A stretch of DNA of 64,000 bases from the NCBI RefSeq assembly GCF_009833095.1, contig NZ_QRCB01000017.1, positions 1-64,000 on the forward strand, given 5' to 3'. The position numbers were made by a program, and so were the translations under genes. Positions 2,716 to 40,061 of the stretch are shown piece by piece. Positions within the stretch are counted from its first letter, which is position 1. Each line of letters begins with the position of its first letter. The notes under the pieces are model-generated. The model had not been told where the DNA came from. It worked only from the letters and a program-made list of their open reading frames with translations, and did not search any database. Origin of the DNA: Nitrosomonas sp. JL21. GTDB taxonomy: Bacteria; Pseudomonadota; Gammaproteobacteria; Burkholderiales; Nitrosomonadaceae.

Positions 2716-3093
2716 TTATGCATTCTTGGGCTTCTTAGATCCATATTTAGATCTCGCTTGTTTGCGATCCTTAACACCGGCAGTATCTAAACTACCTCGA
2801 ATCGTGTGATAGCGCACGCCAGGCAAATCCTTAACCCGGCCACCACGAATAAGAATCACCGAGTGCTCCTGAAGATTATGTCCTTCACCGCCAATATAAC
2901 TGGAAACTTCGAACCCATTGGTCAATCGAACCCTGGCGACTTTACGCAATGCCGAGTTTGGCTTTTTAGGGGTCGTAGTGTATACCCTGGTACACACTCC
3001 TCTTTTTTGTGGGCAATTCTCCAATGCAGGCACATTGCTTTTAATACGCTTAGCAACACGCGGCTTTCGAACTAACTGACTTATTGTCGGCAT
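2716..3093 (-). CDS. rpsL: 30S ribosomal protein S12
   Basis: This 125-residue protein is S12, which sits at the decoding centre and governs accuracy. The start [10 protein letters not shown], the [12 protein letters not shown] loop (streptomycin-resistance region, with the ordinary lysines present) and the [13 protein letters not shown] loop that holds the methylthiolated aspartate are all visible. An AGGA ribosome-binding site lies about eight bases upstream. It is the first gene of the str operon and is preceded by a near-consensus promoter. Unusually, the gene upstream is a yajQ-type gene rather than rpoC. Confidence 0.98.
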
Positions 3094-3238
3094 TTCTATG
3101 TCCTAAAAAACGGGAACGACGCTTGCCGTCCACACTTAAACACTTACATTTATTTGTATTGAAATCGATGCTCAATTATCGCTGCCGCCCCGGATCAACG
3201 TAGCTTAATACGCAATGATGCGACAAAAAAGAGAGCGG

Positions 3239-3267
3239 ATTCTAGGTGGTTTATCCATGCATGTCAA
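3239..3267 (-). promoter_or_regulatory. Sigma70 promoter of the str operon
   Basis: On the minus strand TTGACA (3267..3262) is followed after exactly 17 bases by TAGAAT (3244..3239). This matches the consensus -35 box perfectly and the -10 box at five of six positions. Transcription would start near 3232, giving a leader of about 140 bases before rpsL. A promoter this strong suits ribosomal protein genes. No experimental start is known to me. Confidence 0.8.
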
Positions 3268-3325
3268 GACAAACATCGATCCTGATAAGTGATGCACAAC
3301 CTCCGCATTCCTTTCCTCAATTTTT

Positions 3326-3811
3326 TTAATCCCGAAAATTCTGAAACTGCAACGGAAAATCATTTATGGATTTTTTTACATATTGAATCGCTTCTTGCAG
3401 CACATCTTTCTTGGTGCCGGTCACCCGGACAGTTTCTCCTTGAATGCTAGCCTGTGCCCTCAGTTTGCTATCTTTAAGAATTCTGACGATTTTCTTGGCC
3501 AAATCAGCATCCAGTCCAGTTTTGACAGTCACTACTTGTTTGATTTTATTTCCACTGATTTTTTCAATCTGACCTTTGTCCAAACAACGCACATCAATCG
3601 AGCGTTTAGTCAGTTTGGTTCGCATAATGTCCAAGATTTGCTCTAATTTGAAGTCATCATCAGCAAACACTGTCAATTGAAGATCGGTTTGCTCCACGCG
3701 CACATCAGAGCCTTTAAAATCGAAGCGAGTGCTTATTTCTTTGTTGACTTGATCAACCGCATTTCTAACTTCCTGCTTGTCAACTTCTGAAACAATGTCA
3801 AATGATGGCAT
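3326..3811 (-). CDS. yajQ: YajQ-family nucleotide-binding protein
   Basis: The protein belongs to the YajQ/UPF0234 family of small cytoplasmic proteins; some members bind cyclic di-GMP and act with transcription factors. The start [11 protein letters not shown] and the stretch [10 protein letters not shown] near residue 30 are family hallmarks, and 161 residues is the usual length. I placed the start at the ATG at 3811 because the family begins with MPSFD; the longer frame adds eight residues not seen in relatives. It is the last gene of the leftward argD-argF-argG group, 33 bases after argG. c-di-GMP binding here is only inferred from the family. Confidence 0.93.
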
Positions 3812-3844
3812 GATTAATTTCAATTCCCGTCGCACAAAGCATGA

Positions 3845-5074
3845 TCATTTAGTTGCAGGCTTATTCTTGCTGGCATTCGCCGCGATACGCAATCTGAGCG
3901 CATTGAGTTTTATAAATCCTGCTGCATCTGCTTGATTATATGCACCCGCATCTTCCTCAAAGGTAGCAATATGAGGATCAAACAGAGAATTGGTAGCTGA
4001 GTCTCTCCCTACGACGATGACGTTACCCTTGTATAATTTTAGCCGCACCCAGCCATTGACCTTTTCTTGTGAAGCATCAATCATGGCTTGCAGCATTTTT
4101 CGCTCAGGACTCCACCAGTAACCATTATAAATTAGCGCAGCGTAACGCGGCATCAATTCATCCTTCAAATGCGCCACTTCTCGATCCAATGTGATCGACT
4201 CAATAGCTCGATGAGCTCGCAATAAGATGGTGCCTCCAGGTGTCTCATAGCATCCTCTCGATTTCATTCCGACATACCGATTCTCGACCAGATCCAGTCG
4301 ACCAATACCGTGCTTACCACCCAATTGATTCAGCTTTGCCAGCATGTCTGCAGGCGATAACGAATTACCGTTCAAAGATACAGCATCGCCGCGTTTGAAT
4401 TCGATCTCCGCATACTCGGGTTCATCGGGTGCATTTTCCGGTGACACGCTCCAGCGCCACATCGATTCCTCTGGTTCCATCGCGGGATCTTCGAGGATAC
4501 GGCCTTCATAGGAAATATGCAGAAGATTGGCATCCATGCTGTAAGGCGAACCTGCTTTCTTTTTCATCTCGACTGGGATCCCATGCCGTTCAGCGTATTG
4601 CAGCAATTTCTCTCGAGAGGTCAAGTCCCACTCACGCCACGGCGCGATCACATGAATATTCGGTTGCAGAGCATAATAACCCAGCTCGAAGCGCACTTGG
4701 TCGTTTCCTTTACCGGTCGCACCATGTGAAACCGCATCGGCATGAGTTTCTTGCGCAATCTCGATCTGCCTTTTCGCAATTAATGGTCGCGCGATGCTCG
4801 TACCAAGCAGATATTCCCCTTCATAAATGGTATTGGCCCGAAACATGGGAAATACGAAGTCTCGCACGAACTCCTCGCGCAGATCATCAATATAGATTTC
4901 CTTGACGCCCAATTGCTTGGCCTTCGCGCGAGCCGGCTCAACCTCTTCACCCTGGCCGATATCAGCAGTAAATGTCACCACCTCACATTGATACGTATCT
5001 TGCAGCCATTTCAAAATGACCGACGTGTCCAATCCACCTGAAAAAGCTAACACTACTTTATTGATTTTTTTCAT
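3845..5074 (-). CDS. argG: Argininosuccinate synthase
   Basis: This enzyme joins citrulline and aspartate at the cost of ATP to form argininosuccinate, the penultimate step of arginine synthesis, in the cytoplasm. The 409-residue length is typical. The N-terminal PP-loop AFSGGLDTS (residues 10-18) binds ATP; further family stretches include [13 protein letters not shown] near residue 118 and [11 protein letters not shown] near 262. It follows argF after 67 bases and argD lies further upstream, so the three probably form one transcription unit. An argH gene is not in the window. Confidence 0.98.
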
Positions 5075-5141
5075 TATTTATTAATATGCTCGCTTAATTA
5101 TCCTGTCAGCAGTATTACCGCCATTCTCATCAACAACCGGG

Positions 5142-6065
5142 CTAATTGCCAGCCAATTTACCCAGCAACAAATATTCCATCAATGCCTTTTGAGTATGCA
5201 ATCGATTTTCTGCTTCATCCCACACGACAGATTGCGGTCCTTCCAACACTTCTGCGCTTACCTCTTCACCACGATGAGCCGGTAGACAGTGCATAAAAAG
5301 CGCATCCTTTTTAGCTAATGCCATCATCTCGGCATTGACACAGAATTCAGCAAAATCATTTTTTCTTTGCTCAGTTTCTTCTTCAAACCCCATGCTCGTC
5401 CATACATCCGTTGTCACCAGATCCGCACCCATCACAGCTTTGCGAGGACTGGAAAAAATCTCATAATGGGTGGCATCGATCAATCCAATCTGTTCTGGGC
5501 AGATATCATAACCGGGTGGAGTTGACACATGAACTTTGAAATCGAAAATTTTCGCAGCCTGCAGCCACGTATTGCACATATTATTGGCATCACCGATCCA
5601 AGCCACGATTTTTCCAGAGATGCCGCCCCGATATTCGGTATACGTAAAAATATCGCTCATGATTTGGCAAGGATGATATTTATCGGTCAACCCATTGATG
5701 ACGGGCACTCGTGAATTTTCGGCAAAACGTTTGATAATGTCATGTTCATACGTCCGTATCATGATGAGATCAACCATGCGGGAAATGACTTTTGCTGCAT
5801 CTTCAACCGGCTCACCGCGTCCCAATTGAGTATCACGCGTCGATAAATAAATAGCCGCGCCGCCGAGTTGAAGCATGCCTGCCTCAAATGACAGGCGGGT
5901 GCGCGTCGAGTTTTTGTCGAATATCATTGCCAACGTGCGATCAGTCAATGGCCAATACTGCCGGTATTGCTTGAATTCGTGCTTTATCCAGCGAGCACGC
6001 TCAAAGATGTATTCATATTCCTCACGATTAAAATCAGAGAACTGCAGAAAATGCTTGAATTGCAT
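5142..6065 (-). CDS. argF: Ornithine carbamoyltransferase
   Basis: The enzyme transfers the carbamoyl group of carbamoyl phosphate to ornithine, giving citrulline. The carbamoyl-phosphate motif STRTR is at residues 53-57, and the ornithine-binding HCLP motif lies near residue 264, followed by AHRGEEV. With the start at 6065 the protein is 307 residues, the normal anabolic size; the open frame begins three codons earlier, but MQFKHFLQFSD is the usual start. It lies 48 bases downstream of argD and 67 bases upstream of argG. Confidence 0.97.
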   Translation of the reverse strand: MQFKHFLQFSDFNREEYEYIFERARWIKHEFKQYRQYWPLTDRTLAMIFDKNSTRTRLSFEAGMLQLGGAAIYLSTRDTQLGRGEPVEDAAKVISRMVDLIMIRTYEHDIIKRFAENSRVPVINGLTDKYHPCQIMSDIFTYTEYRGGISGKIVAWIGDANNMCNTWLQAAKIFDFKVHVSTPPGYDICPEQIGLIDATHYEIFSSPRKAVMGADLVTTDVWTSMGFEEETEQRKNDFAEFCVNAEMMALAKKDALFMHCLPAHRGEEVSAEVLEGPQSVVWDEAENRLHTQKALMEYLLLGKLAGN

Positions 6066-35345: not shown

Positions 35346-35762
35346 ATGACCTCGAACATGATTCCTATCAAAACCGTTCTACTATCATGTGCAGTAATGT
35401 TGACGTTGTTCGGCACAGCGCAGAATTCCTTTGCCACACATACTTCACAGCCGGTGCTGGTCGATCCCAAAACCCAGTTTGTCGTGGGAGAGACTATCCA
35501 GTTGCACGGCCGAGTCGATTACAATGAACAGCCTGCGCCAGACGTGCTGCTCAATTTCAAGCTGACGCGCCCGGATGGCGCCGTCGCTGCCGATGAATTC
35601 TACCCCAGCAATGAAAAAGGACAATTTGACTTCAAATTCAATACCCAGAACCAACCATCAGGCACGTATCAGCTCACGATCACTTCGCATTGCCTGGAAA
35701 TTCACCGCTATGCCTGTACCTATAAAAAGGAAACCCTGTCCATTCAGGTCAGCAAGCCGTGA
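35346..35762 (+). CDS. Secreted beta-sandwich-like protein, unknown function
   Basis: The 138-residue product has a signal peptide (residues about 1-31, ending near SFATHT). The remainder has a pattern of beta strands (FVVGETIQLHGRVDY, LLNFKLTRPDGAV, GTYQLTITSHC) that recalls Ig-like or carboxypeptidase-regulatory folds. Two cysteines near the end (SHCLEIHRYACTY) could form a disulfide in the periplasm. It lies about 100 bases ahead of the retropepsin/ATP-grasp operon in the same direction and could be its first gene, but this is uncertain. Confidence 0.65.
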   Translation: MTSNMIPIKTVLLSCAVMLTLFGTAQNSFATHTSQPVLVDPKTQFVVGETIQLHGRVDYNEQPAPDVLLNFKLTRPDGAVAADEFYPSNEKGQFDFKFNTQNQPSGTYQLTITSHCLEIHRYACTYKKETLSIQVSKP

Positions 35763-35859: not shown

Positions 35860-36627
35860 ATGGGAATTGCGCGCTTCATTGTCTCCACCGGCTGCTGTAA
35901 CCAAGCGATCGTTCTAGTCCTTCTGCTGTTGCTTTCCGCGTGCGACATGACTCAACAAGAGGCACTGGCCGAGCGGGAAGCGCGAATCCGCGCCAAGGAA
36001 TCCGAACTGGTCAGCTTATTCGCGGAATTGGTCGAGCAAAAAAAATCCTTGCAACAGCACTCACCCGCTCCTGCGCAGGAAAGTCCTGAACAACCCATCA
36101 ACCCGGGAGATGCTCCCGATCCTTGTGAGACCCAGACCCGTCCCGCGCCATCAGCCCAGCAGCCTACCGCAAAAACTACGGTGCGGACGATACTGGGCGG
36201 CGTCGAAAATGTTTACCTGGATCCTCCCGGCATGGAATTCAGCGCGCGCATCGATACCGGGGCGCAGACGTCATCATTGCACGCGCTCGATATCGTCGAA
36301 TTTGAACGCGATGGCAAACCCTTTGTAAAATTCAGCATGATCCATCCCGAAACCAAAGAAAAAATTCAGATGACCCGGCGCTTGCGGCGCTATGTGCGGG
36401 TCAAGGAACTGGGCAACCGCGAATCGCAGCGGCGTCCCGTGGTCAGGATGCGCGTGGTATTGGCCGACATCGACGAGCGCGTCAACTTCACACTCGAAAA
36501 CCGCAGCCGGTTCAAGCATCAGGTATTGATCGGCCGCAATCTGCTGCAAGACCTTGCCATCGTCGATGTCAGTCAGAAATACACCACCGCCAAGCCCGAC
36601 CGACCTGAACCCGGCGGCGCGAAATAA
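35860..36627 (+). CDS. Retropepsin-like aspartic protease lipoprotein
   Basis: The 255-residue protein has a signal peptide with lipobox LLSAC, a short coiled-coil (about 35-70), a Pro-rich linker, and a C-terminal domain with FSARIDTGAQTSSLHA near residue 127. DTGA is the aspartic protease motif of the RimK-associated retropepsin-like family, often named 'ATP-dependent zinc protease' in databases. It would act in the periplasm. Its stop codon shares one base with the start of the next gene. Comparative work has linked such proteases with ATP-grasp ligases and 7TM transglutaminase-like proteins, as here. Confidence 0.85.
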   Translation: MGIARFIVSTGCCNQAIVLVLLLLLSACDMTQQEALAEREARIRAKESELVSLFAELVEQKKSLQQHSPAPAQESPEQPINPGDAPDPCETQTRPAPSAQQPTAKTTVRTILGGVENVYLDPPGMEFSARIDTGAQTSSLHALDIVEFERDGKPFVKFSMIHPETKEKIQMTRRLRRYVRVKELGNRESQRRPVVRMRVVLADIDERVNFTLENRSRFKHQVLIGRNLLQDLAIVDVSQKYTTAKPDRPEPGGAK

Positions 36628-38177
36628 TGCATTCCAAACTTAAATTGTATGTGCTGGTCGCGTTGATCATGGCGCTAGGGATAGGCTTGATTGCCTATAA
36701 GCACTTCGCGTTGGGATTTCCGTTATTGCCGGATGACAAGAAATCCGTCTGGACGATCGAAGCCAAAATCGATTTCGTTGCGCGCGGTGATCCAGTCATC
36801 GTGTCTTTTGCGCTTCCCGCGGAAACACCCACGACGGTCATTATGGAAGAAGATTTTGCGTCATCCGATTATGGGTTCACTGAACTTTCCACTGCGGCAG
36901 GGCGGCGCGCTCAATGGAGCAAGCGCGCTGCATCTGGCCATCAAACCGTTTATTATCGTGTCAGTGAGTACGAAACGGATCCGCTCGCTGCTCCTCCGCC
37001 TGCTGCGGATTTGCCAACGGAACCTGAAAAACCGGAATTTGACGAAGTCATGAAAACCGCCGCGACGACGCTATTGGATCAGGTGCGCAGCAAATCCGCC
37101 AATACCGAAATCTTCACGCGCGAACTGATCACCTCACTCAATTCGGATACACCCAGTCAGACTCAGAATCTATTGCTCAACGAAAAACCGAGTGAAGATT
37201 ATAAAACCCACCTGATCATCAACTTGCTGGCTTTGGAAGGCATCAGCGCGCGCATCGTGCGCGGGCTCTATCTCGAAGATGGCCGACGCCGCCAATCGCT
37301 GACCAATTTCGTCGAGGTGTATATCGGGAACCGATGGTTATTGTTCAATCAGAATACTGGAAAAATCGGCAAACCCGACGATTTTCTGATCTGGCAGCGA
37401 GGCGATGAATCGCTGCTGGATGTCGTCGGCGGTAAGAATTCCCAGATCTCATTCTCGATCATCAAAAATGTGCACCCCACCCGCACTCTGGTGCTGCGTG
37501 ACAGCATGAACAAGGAGGCGGGCATCATCGATTTTTCGATCTACAGCTTGCCGATCGAGCAGCAGAATGCCTTCAAGATGATTTTACTATTGCCCATCGG
37601 CGCATTGATCGTGGTCATCATGCGGTTACTGATCGGCATCCGCACATCGGGCACGTTCATGCCTATCCTGATTGCATTGGCATTGATCCAAACGACGTTA
37701 CTGACGGGCATCGTGATATTTCTGACGGTGGTCGGCACCGGCCTGCTGATCCGCTCGTATTTGTCGCAGCTCAATCTGCTGTTCGTCGCGCGCATTTCAG
37801 CCGTGATCATCGTCGTCATTGCGATCATGGCCAGTATCAGCATTCTGAGCAACAAGCTCGGGCTTGATCAGGCGATGACCGTGACATTCTTCCCGATGAT
37901 CATCCTATCCTGGACGATCGAGCGCATGTCGGTGCTGTGGGAGGAAGACGGGCCCAGAGAAGTGTTCGTTCAGGGTGGTGGCAGCTTGTTGACGGCGATC
38001 ATCGCGTATCTCTTCATGACCAACCGGACAGTGGAATACCTGACATTCAATTTTCCAGAGCTGATGCTGGTCAATCTCGCGTTGATCCTGATTCTCGGAC
38101 AATATACCGGCTACCGGTTGTCCGAGTTGTATCGATTCCATTCACTGGAACGACGCAATGTTTCTGGCAAGCCCTGA
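36627..38177 (+). CDS. Inactive transglutaminase-like protein with 7TM domain
   Basis: This 516-residue membrane protein has an N-terminal anchor (about 7-25), a large periplasmic part to about 300 that resembles an inactive transglutaminase (LIINLLALEGISARIVRGL, then FVEVYIGNRWLLFN), and a C-terminal block of about seven membrane helices from about 312 to 500. The catalytic Cys-His-Asp set of true transglutaminases is not evident. It begins within the stop of the protease gene and overlaps the ATP-grasp gene by 20 bases, which implies that the three proteins work together. Confidence 0.88.
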   Translation: MHSKLKLYVLVALIMALGIGLIAYKHFALGFPLLPDDKKSVWTIEAKIDFVARGDPVIVSFALPAETPTTVIMEEDFASSDYGFTELSTAAGRRAQWSKRAASGHQTVYYRVSEYETDPLAAPPPAADLPTEPEKPEFDEVMKTAATTLLDQVRSKSANTEIFTRELITSLNSDTPSQTQNLLLNEKPSEDYKTHLIINLLALEGISARIVRGLYLEDGRRRQSLTNFVEVYIGNRWLLFNQNTGKIGKPDDFLIWQRGDESLLDVVGGKNSQISFSIIKNVHPTRTLVLRDSMNKEAGIIDFSIYSLPIEQQNAFKMILLLPIGALIVVIMRLLIGIRTSGTFMPILIALALIQTTLLTGIVIFLTVVGTGLLIRSYLSQLNLLFVARISAVIIVVIAIMASISILSNKLGLDQAMTVTFFPMIILSWTIERMSVLWEEDGPREVFVQGGGSLLTAIIAYLFMTNRTVEYLTFNFPELMLVNLALILILGQYTGYRLSELYRFHSLERRNVSGKP

Positions 38178-39159
38178 AAAACTCAGAAGCTTCGGCATCA
38201 TCGGCATGAACCAGAGAAACGCTGGTTTGATCTCCCGCTATAATCCGCGCCATTTGTTCCCACTGGTCGATAACAAGCTGAAGACCAAATTATTGGCCCA
38301 GAAAGCCGGCATCACGGTTCCTCAGTTGCTCGGTACCCTGCACTATCAGCATGACGTCAAATCGCTGAAAGAACTGCTCCGCCCGCACGATCAGTTCGTC
38401 ATCAAACCCGTCAAGGGCAGCGGCGGCAAAGGTATTCTCGTCATCGTCCGGAATGACCACAATCTCTACTTCAAGCCCAGCGGCGACGCGTTGCAATTGG
38501 CTGACATCGAACGCCATGTATCCAATATTCTGAGTGGTCTGCACAGTCTTGGCGGCAAGCCGGATAGCGTGATGATCGAATCGCTGATTCAACTCGATCC
38601 GGTATTCTCGGACTACAGCTACCAGGGCATTCCCGATATACGAATCATCGTTTTTCTGGGTTATCCGATCATGGCAATGTTGCGGCTCACTACCCACGCA
38701 TCGGATGGCAAGGCCAATCTTCATCAAGGCGCGGTCGGTGTCGGTATCGATATCGGCACCGGCCGAGCGCTGCATGCCGTACAATTTGGCCGCACCGTTC
38801 TGCATCACCCCGACACGCGCAAAACATTCTCCGATCTGGTGATTCCTCACTGGGACAAGCTGTTGCAACTCGCTGCAGCTTGTTACGACATGACCGGCCT
38901 CGGATATCTGGGCGCAGATCTGGTACTGGACCGGGATCAAGGTCCGATGATCATTGAATTGAACGCCCGCCCCGGCCTTGCCATTCAAGTGGCCAACTAT
39001 GCCGGTCTGGCCCCCCGTGTCGCGATCATAGAAACGCTGAAATCCATCGACCCCAGTCCGGTATCACGCGCCGAATTCAGCAAACAGCAATTCTGCGTGC
39101 AAACCGGCCCTCAACCGCCGCGCACCTTGCACACGCGTTCAAGCGACAACGCAGCATAG
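38158..39159 (+). CDS. RimK-type ATP-grasp ligase (alpha-L-glutamate ligase-like)
   Basis: The 333-residue protein has the ATP-grasp fold: a pre-ATP region MNQRNAGLISRYNPR, the glycine-rich loop PVKGSGGKGILV near residue 86, and the metal site IIELNARPGLAIQ near residue 264. Family members join amino acids such as glutamate to peptides or proteins. It overlaps the 7TM gene by 20 bases. An alternative start at 38206 would also fit. The substrate is unknown; cytoplasmic location suggests it modifies a product that the membrane and periplasmic partners sense or process. Confidence 0.88.
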   Translation: MFLASPEKLRSFGIIGMNQRNAGLISRYNPRHLFPLVDNKLKTKLLAQKAGITVPQLLGTLHYQHDVKSLKELLRPHDQFVIKPVKGSGGKGILVIVRNDHNLYFKPSGDALQLADIERHVSNILSGLHSLGGKPDSVMIESLIQLDPVFSDYSYQGIPDIRIIVFLGYPIMAMLRLTTHASDGKANLHQGAVGVGIDIGTGRALHAVQFGRTVLHHPDTRKTFSDLVIPHWDKLLQLAAACYDMTGLGYLGADLVLDRDQGPMIIELNARPGLAIQVANYAGLAPRVAIIETLKSIDPSPVSRAEFSKQQFCVQTGPQPPRTLHTRSSDNAA

Positions 39160-39494: not shown

Positions 39495-40061
39495 ATGGCT
39501 CGCAACAAGCTCATCTTTTTAGTTTCAAGTACTCTGATATTTTTAATTGGCATAGCCTCTATCGCTGTGGCATCCAATAATCCAATCGAGTCTCAAATTG
39601 AAAATAAAAATATCTTACTGGCTCAAGCACAGCAACATTCCCATGAAAAAGAAGCTCTGCATGAGAAACATGACAGACATAAAAAATGGGACAAGCATGG
39701 AAAAGAGCCTGATTATGCTCATATGATCATATCCCATACAGACGCACTGAAATTAAGCGATGAGCAATTAGGAAAAATTGTTCGTTTGCATCTAAAGTAC
39801 GATCAAGAACATAAACAAATTAAACACCAATTGATGAAAAGTGTAAAAAACCTGAAAAGAGAAAGCATGATTCCGAGTACAACGGATGATCAATTACGCA
39901 AGCTTGGGAAAGAACTTGCTGAGAGTGCTAATGCAATGATAGAACATCACATTAATGAACGTAGCGCGATTCATGGCGTTTTAACAGAGGAGCAGCGGAA
40001 ACAGTTGAATTCTCTAAAAATGGACCATGACTCTGATACACATGGCCATAGTCATCACTGA
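39495..40061 (+). CDS. His-rich Spy/CpxP-like periplasmic protein
   Basis: The 188-residue protein has a signal peptide (about 1-26), a His/Lys-rich stretch (HSHEKEALHEKHDRHKK near 48), a helical core with LTxxQ-type motifs (LKLSDEQLGKI near 86 and LTEEQRKQL near 164), and a His-rich tail HGHSHH. This fits the Spy/CpxP/ZraP family of periplasmic chaperones and metal-stress proteins. The His clusters suggest binding of zinc, copper or nickel, which is inference. AAGGAG lies eight bases before the ATG. Its DNA is AT-richer than its neighbours. Confidence 0.75.
   Translation: MARNKLIFLVSSTLIFLIGIASIAVASNNPIESQIENKNILLAQAQQHSHEKEALHEKHDRHKKWDKHGKEPDYAHMIISHTDALKLSDEQLGKIVRLHLKYDQEHKQIKHQLMKSVKNLKRESMIPSTTDDQLRKLGKELAESANAMIEHHINERSAIHGVLTEEQRKQLNSLKMDHDSDTHGHSHH

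Follow-up and report, generated by a model that had tools for sequence, protein, structure and literature searches.

A predicted rloABC operon of Nitrosomonas and the distribution of an intact RloB triad and a neighbouring retropepsin among its relatives

We analysed a 64,000-nucleotide stretch of the genome of Nitrosomonas sp. JL21 (assembly GCF_009833095.1, contig NZ_QRCB01000017.1, positions 1 to 64,000 of the forward strand; hereafter the window), in which three coupled genes encode a retropepsin lipoprotein (RloA), a membrane protein with a transglutaminase-fold domain (RloB) and an ATP-grasp ligase (RloC). These genes almost certainly constitute the Nitrosomonas version of the rloABC operon that was characterised in Pseudomonas aeruginosa in June 2025 (RloA PA14_41690, RloB PA14_41710, RloC PA14_41730; PMC12239564). 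When RloB-like loci were compared, the proteins that keep a Cys-His-Asp triad had no retropepsin gene beside them, while those that have lost it usually had one adjacent, suggesting that hydrolysis, once carried out by RloB, passed to a separate retropepsin. The rlo system itself has been known since 2025; what is new here is this comparative pattern of triad against retropepsin, together with a member of the system that has one protease. That an intact triad in RloB should be exchanged for an adjacent retropepsin would surprise a specialist and is directly testable.

Triad and retropepsin across RloB-like loci

Matches to the seven-transmembrane (7TM) family PF14402 were present in 79 of 369 genomes of the class and in 65 of 398 genomes of the phylum (the two sets are partly shared), and their scores fell into two bands, at or above 286.8 bits and at or below 191.5 bits. 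Of 141 distinct places, 80 were fetched, comprising all 25 that scored under 200 bits and 55 of the 116 that scored over, and 79 RloB-like loci were counted after a weak match without RloB (L179) had been dropped. RloB was aligned on the triad and neighbours were scored in stretches of up to 9.1 kb; Types I to IV were named after the triad and the neighbours had been seen. In Type I (55 loci and the truncated L177, which lacks the Cys, has RloA upstream and stands outside the 55), the triad was found in 0/55, and the RloB of the window is likewise triad-less. RloA lies directly upstream in 52 of these 55 loci (50 by the script distance rule, L193 and L202 from coordinates), and RloC is present in 54, the contig ending in the remaining one; genome G623, which has a Type I locus without an adjacent RloA, carries an unlinked retropepsin with a signal peptide (L252).

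Type II (13 loci: L162, L164-L170 and L180-L184) showed the opposite arrangement, with Cys, His and Asp in 13/13, RloC in 13/13 (in two frames in L165; the RloB frame is broken in L167) and an RloA-like gene in none of the 13 stretches. The Cys, His and Asp of the Type II protein of L112 align with the Cys, His and Asp of 3isr, a structure deposited as a putative cysteine protease, in a weak match (E 0.0012) that is the sole sequence match in the PDB, and six scanned proteins, four of Type II and two of Type III, also match the family Transglut_core (PF01841) at 59-64 bits. No PF05618 (retropepsin) match was found in 7 of the 13 Type II genomes (G602 and G567, 88% complete; the other five 97-99%), and the other six have one or two matches each; the unlinked genes fetched from these (L246-L251) have a RimB-like GWRE pattern and no signal peptide that could be made out by eye. 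The remaining two belong to other loci of the same bin, a Type I operon in G033 and a Type III copy in G381. In Type III (eight loci, of which L178 is truncated), the Cys is absent in 8/8, and no RloC of this family was found within the stretches. The retropepsin gene abuts RloB in five of the eight, head to head in L163 and L172 and tail to tail in L173, L175 and L178, with a signal peptide visible by eye in L163, L172 and L178. Three gene orders thus place a retropepsin next to a Cys-less RloB-like protein: the tandem order of Type I and the two of Type III, which lack RloC. Type IV (two loci) consists of a 7TM protein without the transglutaminase domain, together with RloC.

In a tree of the 7TM domain (84 rows), rooted on Type III by our own choice, Types I, II, III and IV each occupy one branch side (supports 85, 97, 100 and 100), the fused protein of L170 forming a very long branch of unsure placement. 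The RloC tree (69 rows) groups Type I in a single clade (97) but requires two changes for Type II, and the fused L170 is once more on a long branch. Since an intact triad that matches the catalytic residues of the superfamily is most simply ancestral, Types I and III would have lost it, and the RloB domain appears to descend from an active Cys-His-Asp enzyme of the transglutaminase fold. Because the triad is kept where no retropepsin lies beside RloB and is lost where one is usually adjacent, RloA has probably taken over cleavage, and the dead RloB domain has probably kept a binding or presenting role, as far as sequence comparison can tell. A literature search, judged on titles, abstract openings and some passages, returned no work recognisable as treating a triad-intact RloB. 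Iyer et al. 2009 are reported to have predicted an association of these protein families, and may already mention active forms.

Several observations weigh against such a hand-over. Genome G033 (86% complete, 6% contaminated) has its Type II locus in addition to the Type I operon with RloA, and in G381 the Type II locus coexists with a Type III copy that has a secreted-type retropepsin. Among Type I genomes, G355 (99% complete) gave no PF05618 match at all, and in G120 (94% complete, 6% contamination) the sole gene of this kind (L254) is RimB-like. In Type III, no signal peptide is apparent in the frame of the L173 retropepsin, a retropepsin is missing from the stretches of L171 and L174 (the genome of L174, G294, has one about 5 kb off), and L176 has only a RimB-like retropepsin, 2 kb away. 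Furthermore, as each type occupies a single branch side, the pattern reflects few evolutionary events and not 76 independent ones, and the Type II enzymes could ligate rather than cut.

The three proteins of the window operon

The source assembly is 3.17 Mb in size and 99.99% complete, and the nearest loci to that of the window are from Nitrosomonas. An earlier, sequence-only reading of this DNA had described three genes with two short overlaps, and the coordinates confirm both (Table 1). With gene starts taken from the alignment with the window, the spacing measured by script between rloA and rloB was -1 in 45 of 51 Nitrosomonas-group loci and that between rloB and rloC was -20 in 47 and -14 in four, so that the order A-B-C stands as one unit, through overlaps in the window and an arrangement kept in relatives. 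Promoter and terminator predictions were uninformative (4 and 5 sites, where 4.2 and 4.5 would be expected). The motifs LLSAC, DTGA, KGSGGKG and ELNARPG named by the sequence-only reading are all present, and its family assignments were right, with PF05618, PF14400, PF14402 and PF14397 all above cut-off in the Pfam check. Both the three genes and the catalytic residues, on whose conservation that reading had let a joint system depend, are conserved together in relatives.

Table 1. Features of the rlo locus (coordinates of the window)
Feature	Position	Strand	Description
rloA / RloA	35860-36627	+	lipoprotein with lipobox LLSAC (Cys28, Asp at +2), linker and retropepsin domain
rloB / RloB	36627-38177	+	N-terminal helix, periplasmic transglutaminase-fold domain without triad, about seven membrane helices
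rloC / RloC	38158-39159	+	cytoplasmic ATP-grasp ligase, fold nearest ArgX/LysX/RimK/cyanophycin synthetase
RloA-RloB stop/start overlap, 1 base	36625-36629	+	stop TAA at 36625-36627; RloB ATG shares one base
RloB-RloC overlap, 20 bases	38158-38177	+	read directly from the sequence
Secreted small protein	35346-35762	+	MBG/MG2-like, below Pfam cut-offs; operon membership uncertain

The co-occurrence of these families in proteobacteria, which the sequence-only reading had given as known, was borne out by the comparison of neighbourhoods. Among 143 sampled genomes of the class, 26 contained PF14402 (25 of them over cut-off), 40 contained TIGR02291 (20 of them over cut-off) and 65 contained PF05618; at the 27 PF14402 places of this sample PF05618 lay upstream within 1 kb in 20, TIGR02291 just downstream in 23 and both in 19. 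The window genome has the PF05618, RloB and RloC families once each; as its PF05618 gene is single, no RimB was detected. Within the same taxonomic family, PF05618 is present in 41 of 81 genomes. All but one of the 41 genomes in the window's genus have it, against a single one of the 40 outside the genus, and at least two matches occur in 17 of the 41 genus members. A 673-residue frame with three PF05618 matches, possibly a multi-domain retropepsin, was noticed in another genome of the genus (G206:C64:3892-5382).

RloA matches PF05618 with 118 bits (cut-off 27). Its retropepsin domain spans approximately residues 111-245 and contains the DTGA motif with the catalytic residue Asp132, as well as two conserved arginines, Arg192 and Arg215. 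In an alignment of 78 RloA proteins (the window, the Nitrosomonas group, Marinobacter and a few others; of the 79 loci, L033, without RloA, and L041, a fragment, both at contig edges, were left out), Asp132, Gly134 and Arg192 are conserved in 78/78 and Ala135 and Arg215 in 77/78, while residue 133 is T in 52 and S in 26 (DTG versus DSG). The motif DSGA replaces DTGA as the catalytic motif in the Marinobacter loci and in L031, L032, L035 and L052. In a class-wide set of 54 RloA proteins that includes the window, Asp132, Arg192 and Arg215 are each found in 54/54. The two arginines are 23 residues apart, the same distance as that between R114 and R137 of the P. aeruginosa RloA, to which they would correspond. 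Cysteine is absent from the protease domain in the window and in all 51 Nitrosomonas-group rows; class-wide, 39 of the 54 proteins have two cysteines there, eight have none and seven have other numbers. By regular expression a lipobox is present in 8 of the 54, so the lipid anchor is not peculiar to the window. An Asp at position +2 of the lipobox is the rule for retention in the inner membrane, and this signal was considered for RloA and dropped; the relatives often have Asn and others have Glu, Lys, His, Gln, Ser or Ala at this position, and with so varied a residue we make no claim on the sorting of RloA.

RloB matches PF14400 with 169 bits and PF14402 with 358 bits (cut-off 25). The periplasmic transglutaminase-like part and the approximately seven helices of the sequence-only reading were recovered, refined by an additional N-terminal helix that precedes the periplasmic domain. 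At the positions of the triad Cys, His and Asp the window has E, T and N, there is no Cys among all 516 residues, and PF01841 was not matched at E 0.001. In the structural model (predicted local distance difference test, pLDDT, 79.6), residues 37-284 superimposed on 3isr with a Z score of 15.7 and a root-mean-square deviation (rmsd) of 3.9 over 220 aligned residues, the next row standing at Z 8.2; transglutaminases and TgpA were matched at Z of about 6-7. The 7TM region (window 37600-38040) gave partial matches to RnfA (Z 8.2) and NqrD (Z 6.5), which lie below the level at which the tool is trusted for helical proteins and were not used. In another bacterium, disruption of an inactive-transglutaminase gene is reported to increase vesicle output (PMC12096838).

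RloC matches PF14397 with 320 bits (cut-off 31.4) and the NCBIfam model TIGR02291 with 456 bits (cut-off 314), and its ATP-grasp residues Lys83, SGGKG, Glu267, Asn269 and Arg271 are conserved in 79-80 of 80 sequences. Its model (pLDDT 85.2) resembled ArgX (3vpb; Z 18.1, rmsd 3.0, 218 aligned), RimK (5zct; Z 17.6, rmsd 2.8, 212 aligned) and cyanophycin synthetase (7wae; Z 17.1, rmsd 2.9, 217 aligned), and these top three matches lie within Z 1 of each other; the best match in Foldseek was RimK 7qys. Elsewhere in the window genome, two adjoining ATP-grasp frames of 783 and 858 residues (G000:C9:86213-89169; L084, L086, L090) may be a cyanophycin synthetase pair, which is a guess.

Proposed mechanism and alternative readings

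As reported for P. aeruginosa in the passages of PMC12239564 used here, three secreted RloA proteases are redundantly required on salt-free medium, the catalytic Asp is essential, and loss of rloB or rloC suppresses the loss of the rloA proteases. In vitro, RloA cleaves runs of 8 or 10 glutamates but none of 6 or fewer, and the variants R114A and R137A cleave poorly and do not rescue in vivo; in Pseudomonas the operon affects hypo-osmotic survival, biofilm and sensitivity to cell-wall antibiotics (PMC12239564). In the mechanism that we propose, RloC, a cytoplasmic ligase of the RimK/ArgX kind, would add glutamate, most likely as a poly-alpha-glutamate run, to an acceptor, or would make a free polymer; RloB, coupled to RloC, would pass or hold the product at the inner membrane; and RloA, lipid-anchored in the periplasm, would cut it. 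Uncut product would harm the envelope, which would explain why the loss of RloB or RloC relieves the loss of the protease. For Type II, cutting or a related transfer would fall to the RloB domain itself. The substrate of the ligase, the conveyance and the natural product are predicted here. We regard this explanation as a whole, from ligation by RloC through conveyance by RloB and cutting by RloA to the hand-over from the RloB triad to a retropepsin, as evenly poised between right and wrong.

The sequence-only reading had a cytoplasmic ligase make or tag something that is sensed across the membrane and trimmed in the periplasm, and it is partly supported. Ligation and periplasmic trimming fit the P. 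aeruginosa genetics and the polyglutamate cleavage by RloA (PMC12239564), with the step of RloC being putative. No support was found for sensing, and a role of RloB in conveying or retaining the product would fit at least equally. That reading also took the substrates to be not established, which holds for the natural substrate and is outdated for cleavage, since runs of at least 8 glutamates are cut in vitro, as described in PMC12239564.

Further hints come from the Type II operons. In L170, a single 838-residue frame (3076-5592) fuses a triad-intact PF01841 domain with PF14402 and PF14397, which favours the view that RloB and RloC act together and that the C-terminus of RloB faces the cytoplasm. 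Downstream, a similar protein is encoded in 13/13 Type II loci (one BLAST cluster), which was a TPR protein in the two that were scanned and had an N-terminal membrane helix by eye in the eight inspected. It is followed, in 11 of the 12 Type II loci that were long enough, with L170 being the one without, by a gene whose product has 377-481 residues (measured from stop to stop; the end of the stretch truncates two). Most of these proteins have a signal peptide and an aromatic or leucine end like that of outer-membrane barrels (by eye), and the Pfam scan of two of them gave one barrel match below cut-off and one without any match; in L186, an open frame that looks barrel-like by eye also lies ahead of the Type IV pair. 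The TPR and barrel-like genes suggest a route to the outer membrane, and would hint at the destination of the product. Taken further, RloB-RloC might form the centre of an envelope machine whose product, either an acidic poly-amino-acid (poly-alpha-glutamate) or something polyglutamylated, is made in the cytoplasm and then transported outward. The older Type II form would span the envelope through the TPR protein and an outer-membrane barrel and would cut or transfer with its own Cys-His-Asp domain, and in Type I this enzyme would have died and a retropepsin, of a kind best known from retroviruses, would have been recruited next door. We hold this extended picture to be speculative and rather unlikely; if it is true, an exported polyglutamate system has so far gone unseen in Gram-negative bacteria. 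Should an intact RloB domain replace RloA, the cleavage step and its place would be defined.

A rather unlikely alternative is that the Type II domain joins the RloC product to an envelope acceptor while RloA trims in Type I, in which case the two are not equivalent and nothing was handed over. Both transferases and proteases have the transglutaminase fold, the RloB model matches transglutaminases and TgpA, and the TPR proteins (13/13) and barrel-like proteins (11/12) of Type II mean that its chemistry may differ; however, the putative cysteine protease 3isr is both the best structural match of the window domain and the sole PDB sequence match of the Type II domain, and 5/8 Type III loci have a retropepsin right next to the Cys-less protein, in other gene orders. 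Unlikely, too, is that the association of triad and retropepsin is lineage history, Type II having split off before RloA joined and the two features being unrelated: the confinement of each type to one branch side leaves the pattern little statistical weight, but Type III is a further Cys-less clade in which a retropepsin adjoins RloB in 5/8 loci and in two orientations, and adjacency by chance should be rare (a rough judgement, with 1-3 PF05618 genes per genome). That RloA acts on RloB or on the RloB-RloC complex, as in the regulated proteolysis of a sensor, and not on a glutamate polymer, would suit the tight linkage and coupling of rloA and rloB and the Type III pairs of retropepsin and RloB-like protein without RloC in the stretch, but is made distinctly improbable by the cleavage of 8 or 10 and not of 6 or fewer glutamates and by the failure of R114A and R137A to rescue (PMC12239564), the arginines that we take to match R114 and R137 being invariant in the class-wide RloA set.

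Neighbouring genes and comparison with known systems

The small secreted protein encoded before rloA had been offered in the sequence-only reading as a possible part of the unit. Of 52 Nitrosomonas-group loci, 45 have a gene for it immediately before rloA, against 0/27 other loci (two of the seven loci that miss it, L033 and L041, are at contig edges); Cys116 and Cys124 are invariant in 46 rows, and ATHxSxP is conserved after the signal. Being confined to the Nitrosomonas group, it is at most an addition at the level of the genus. Just downstream of rloC (39495-40061, + strand), an LTXXQ-family protein is encoded, which is presumably Spy/CpxP-like; envelope-stress chaperone relatives would fit the neighbourhood. 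RloB-like genes were also observed beside RimB-RimK-like pairs in L175 (1703-5754) and L185 (1465-5719), a physical link of the two systems, and the RloB-like gene of L175 also adjoins another retropepsin.

Poly-gamma-glutamate synthase (PgsB-PgsC) resembles the rlo pair in the way it works only, in that a small membrane protein accompanies a glutamate ligase. Patterns seen by eye (G..G...P..IA and P..I...(I/L).R) had suggested homology of the 7TM domain to PgsC/CapC, which was set aside, profile comparison (hhalign probability <1%) being no better than shuffles: the score against a single PgsC sequence was 16.7, with 100 shuffles reaching up to 27.6, and against a shallow profile of five PgsC sequences it was 15.4 (local, hhalign), with 60 column shuffles reaching up to 23.8 and the reversed profile 15.3. 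A hmmscan of the 7TM domain to E 10 listed no PgsC/CapC family, no PgsB family was listed for RloC at E 0.001, and a literature search found nothing on PgsC/CapC with transglutaminase or 7TM and nothing for OsrA/B/C.

RimB-RimK, which carries out polyglutamylation of ribosomal protein S6 and in which RimB is a cytoplasmic cousin of RloA (PMC11957791), shares with the window a pair of retropepsin and ATP-grasp glutamate ligase of related families and fold. According to the passages on it in PMC12239564, RimB lacks a signal peptide and no membrane protein is encoded in the rim locus, whereas the RloA of the window has a signal and lipobox. The window retropepsin is thus exported, and the RimK family TIGR00768 stayed below cut-off both for RloC and across the window genome (ten matches, none over cut-off), which sets the operon apart from RimB-RimK. 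The Type II operons, like the window, have a 7TM protein and an RloC-type ATP-grasp protein in tandem, and differ in their intact Cys-His-Asp, the lack of an adjacent retropepsin and the added TPR and barrel-like genes.

The closest known system is rloABC of P. aeruginosa, which has in common with the window the three families, their order, the presumed topology, the catalytic Asp, a triad-less domain on the 7TM protein and, by our mapping, two apparent substrate-binding arginines; the window RloC also passes TIGR02291. The narrower NCBIfam models did not reach their cut-offs (RloA3 102/210, RloA2 79/250, RloA1 73/280 and RloB 388/900 bits), and the window proteins are therefore not filed under the names RloA1, RloA2, RloA3 and RloB of these models. 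The word lipoprotein is absent from the text of PMC12239564, whereas the window RloA carries a lipobox. A disulfide is described for periplasmic orthologs in the relevant passages of PMC12239564; as the Nitrosomonas-group protease domain has no cysteine, it does not have that disulfide. Finally, P. aeruginosa has three RloA proteins plus RimB, as reported in PMC12239564, whereas the single PF05618 gene of the window genome, beside which no RimB was detected, makes this Nitrosomonas a natural minimal version of the system with one retropepsin gene.

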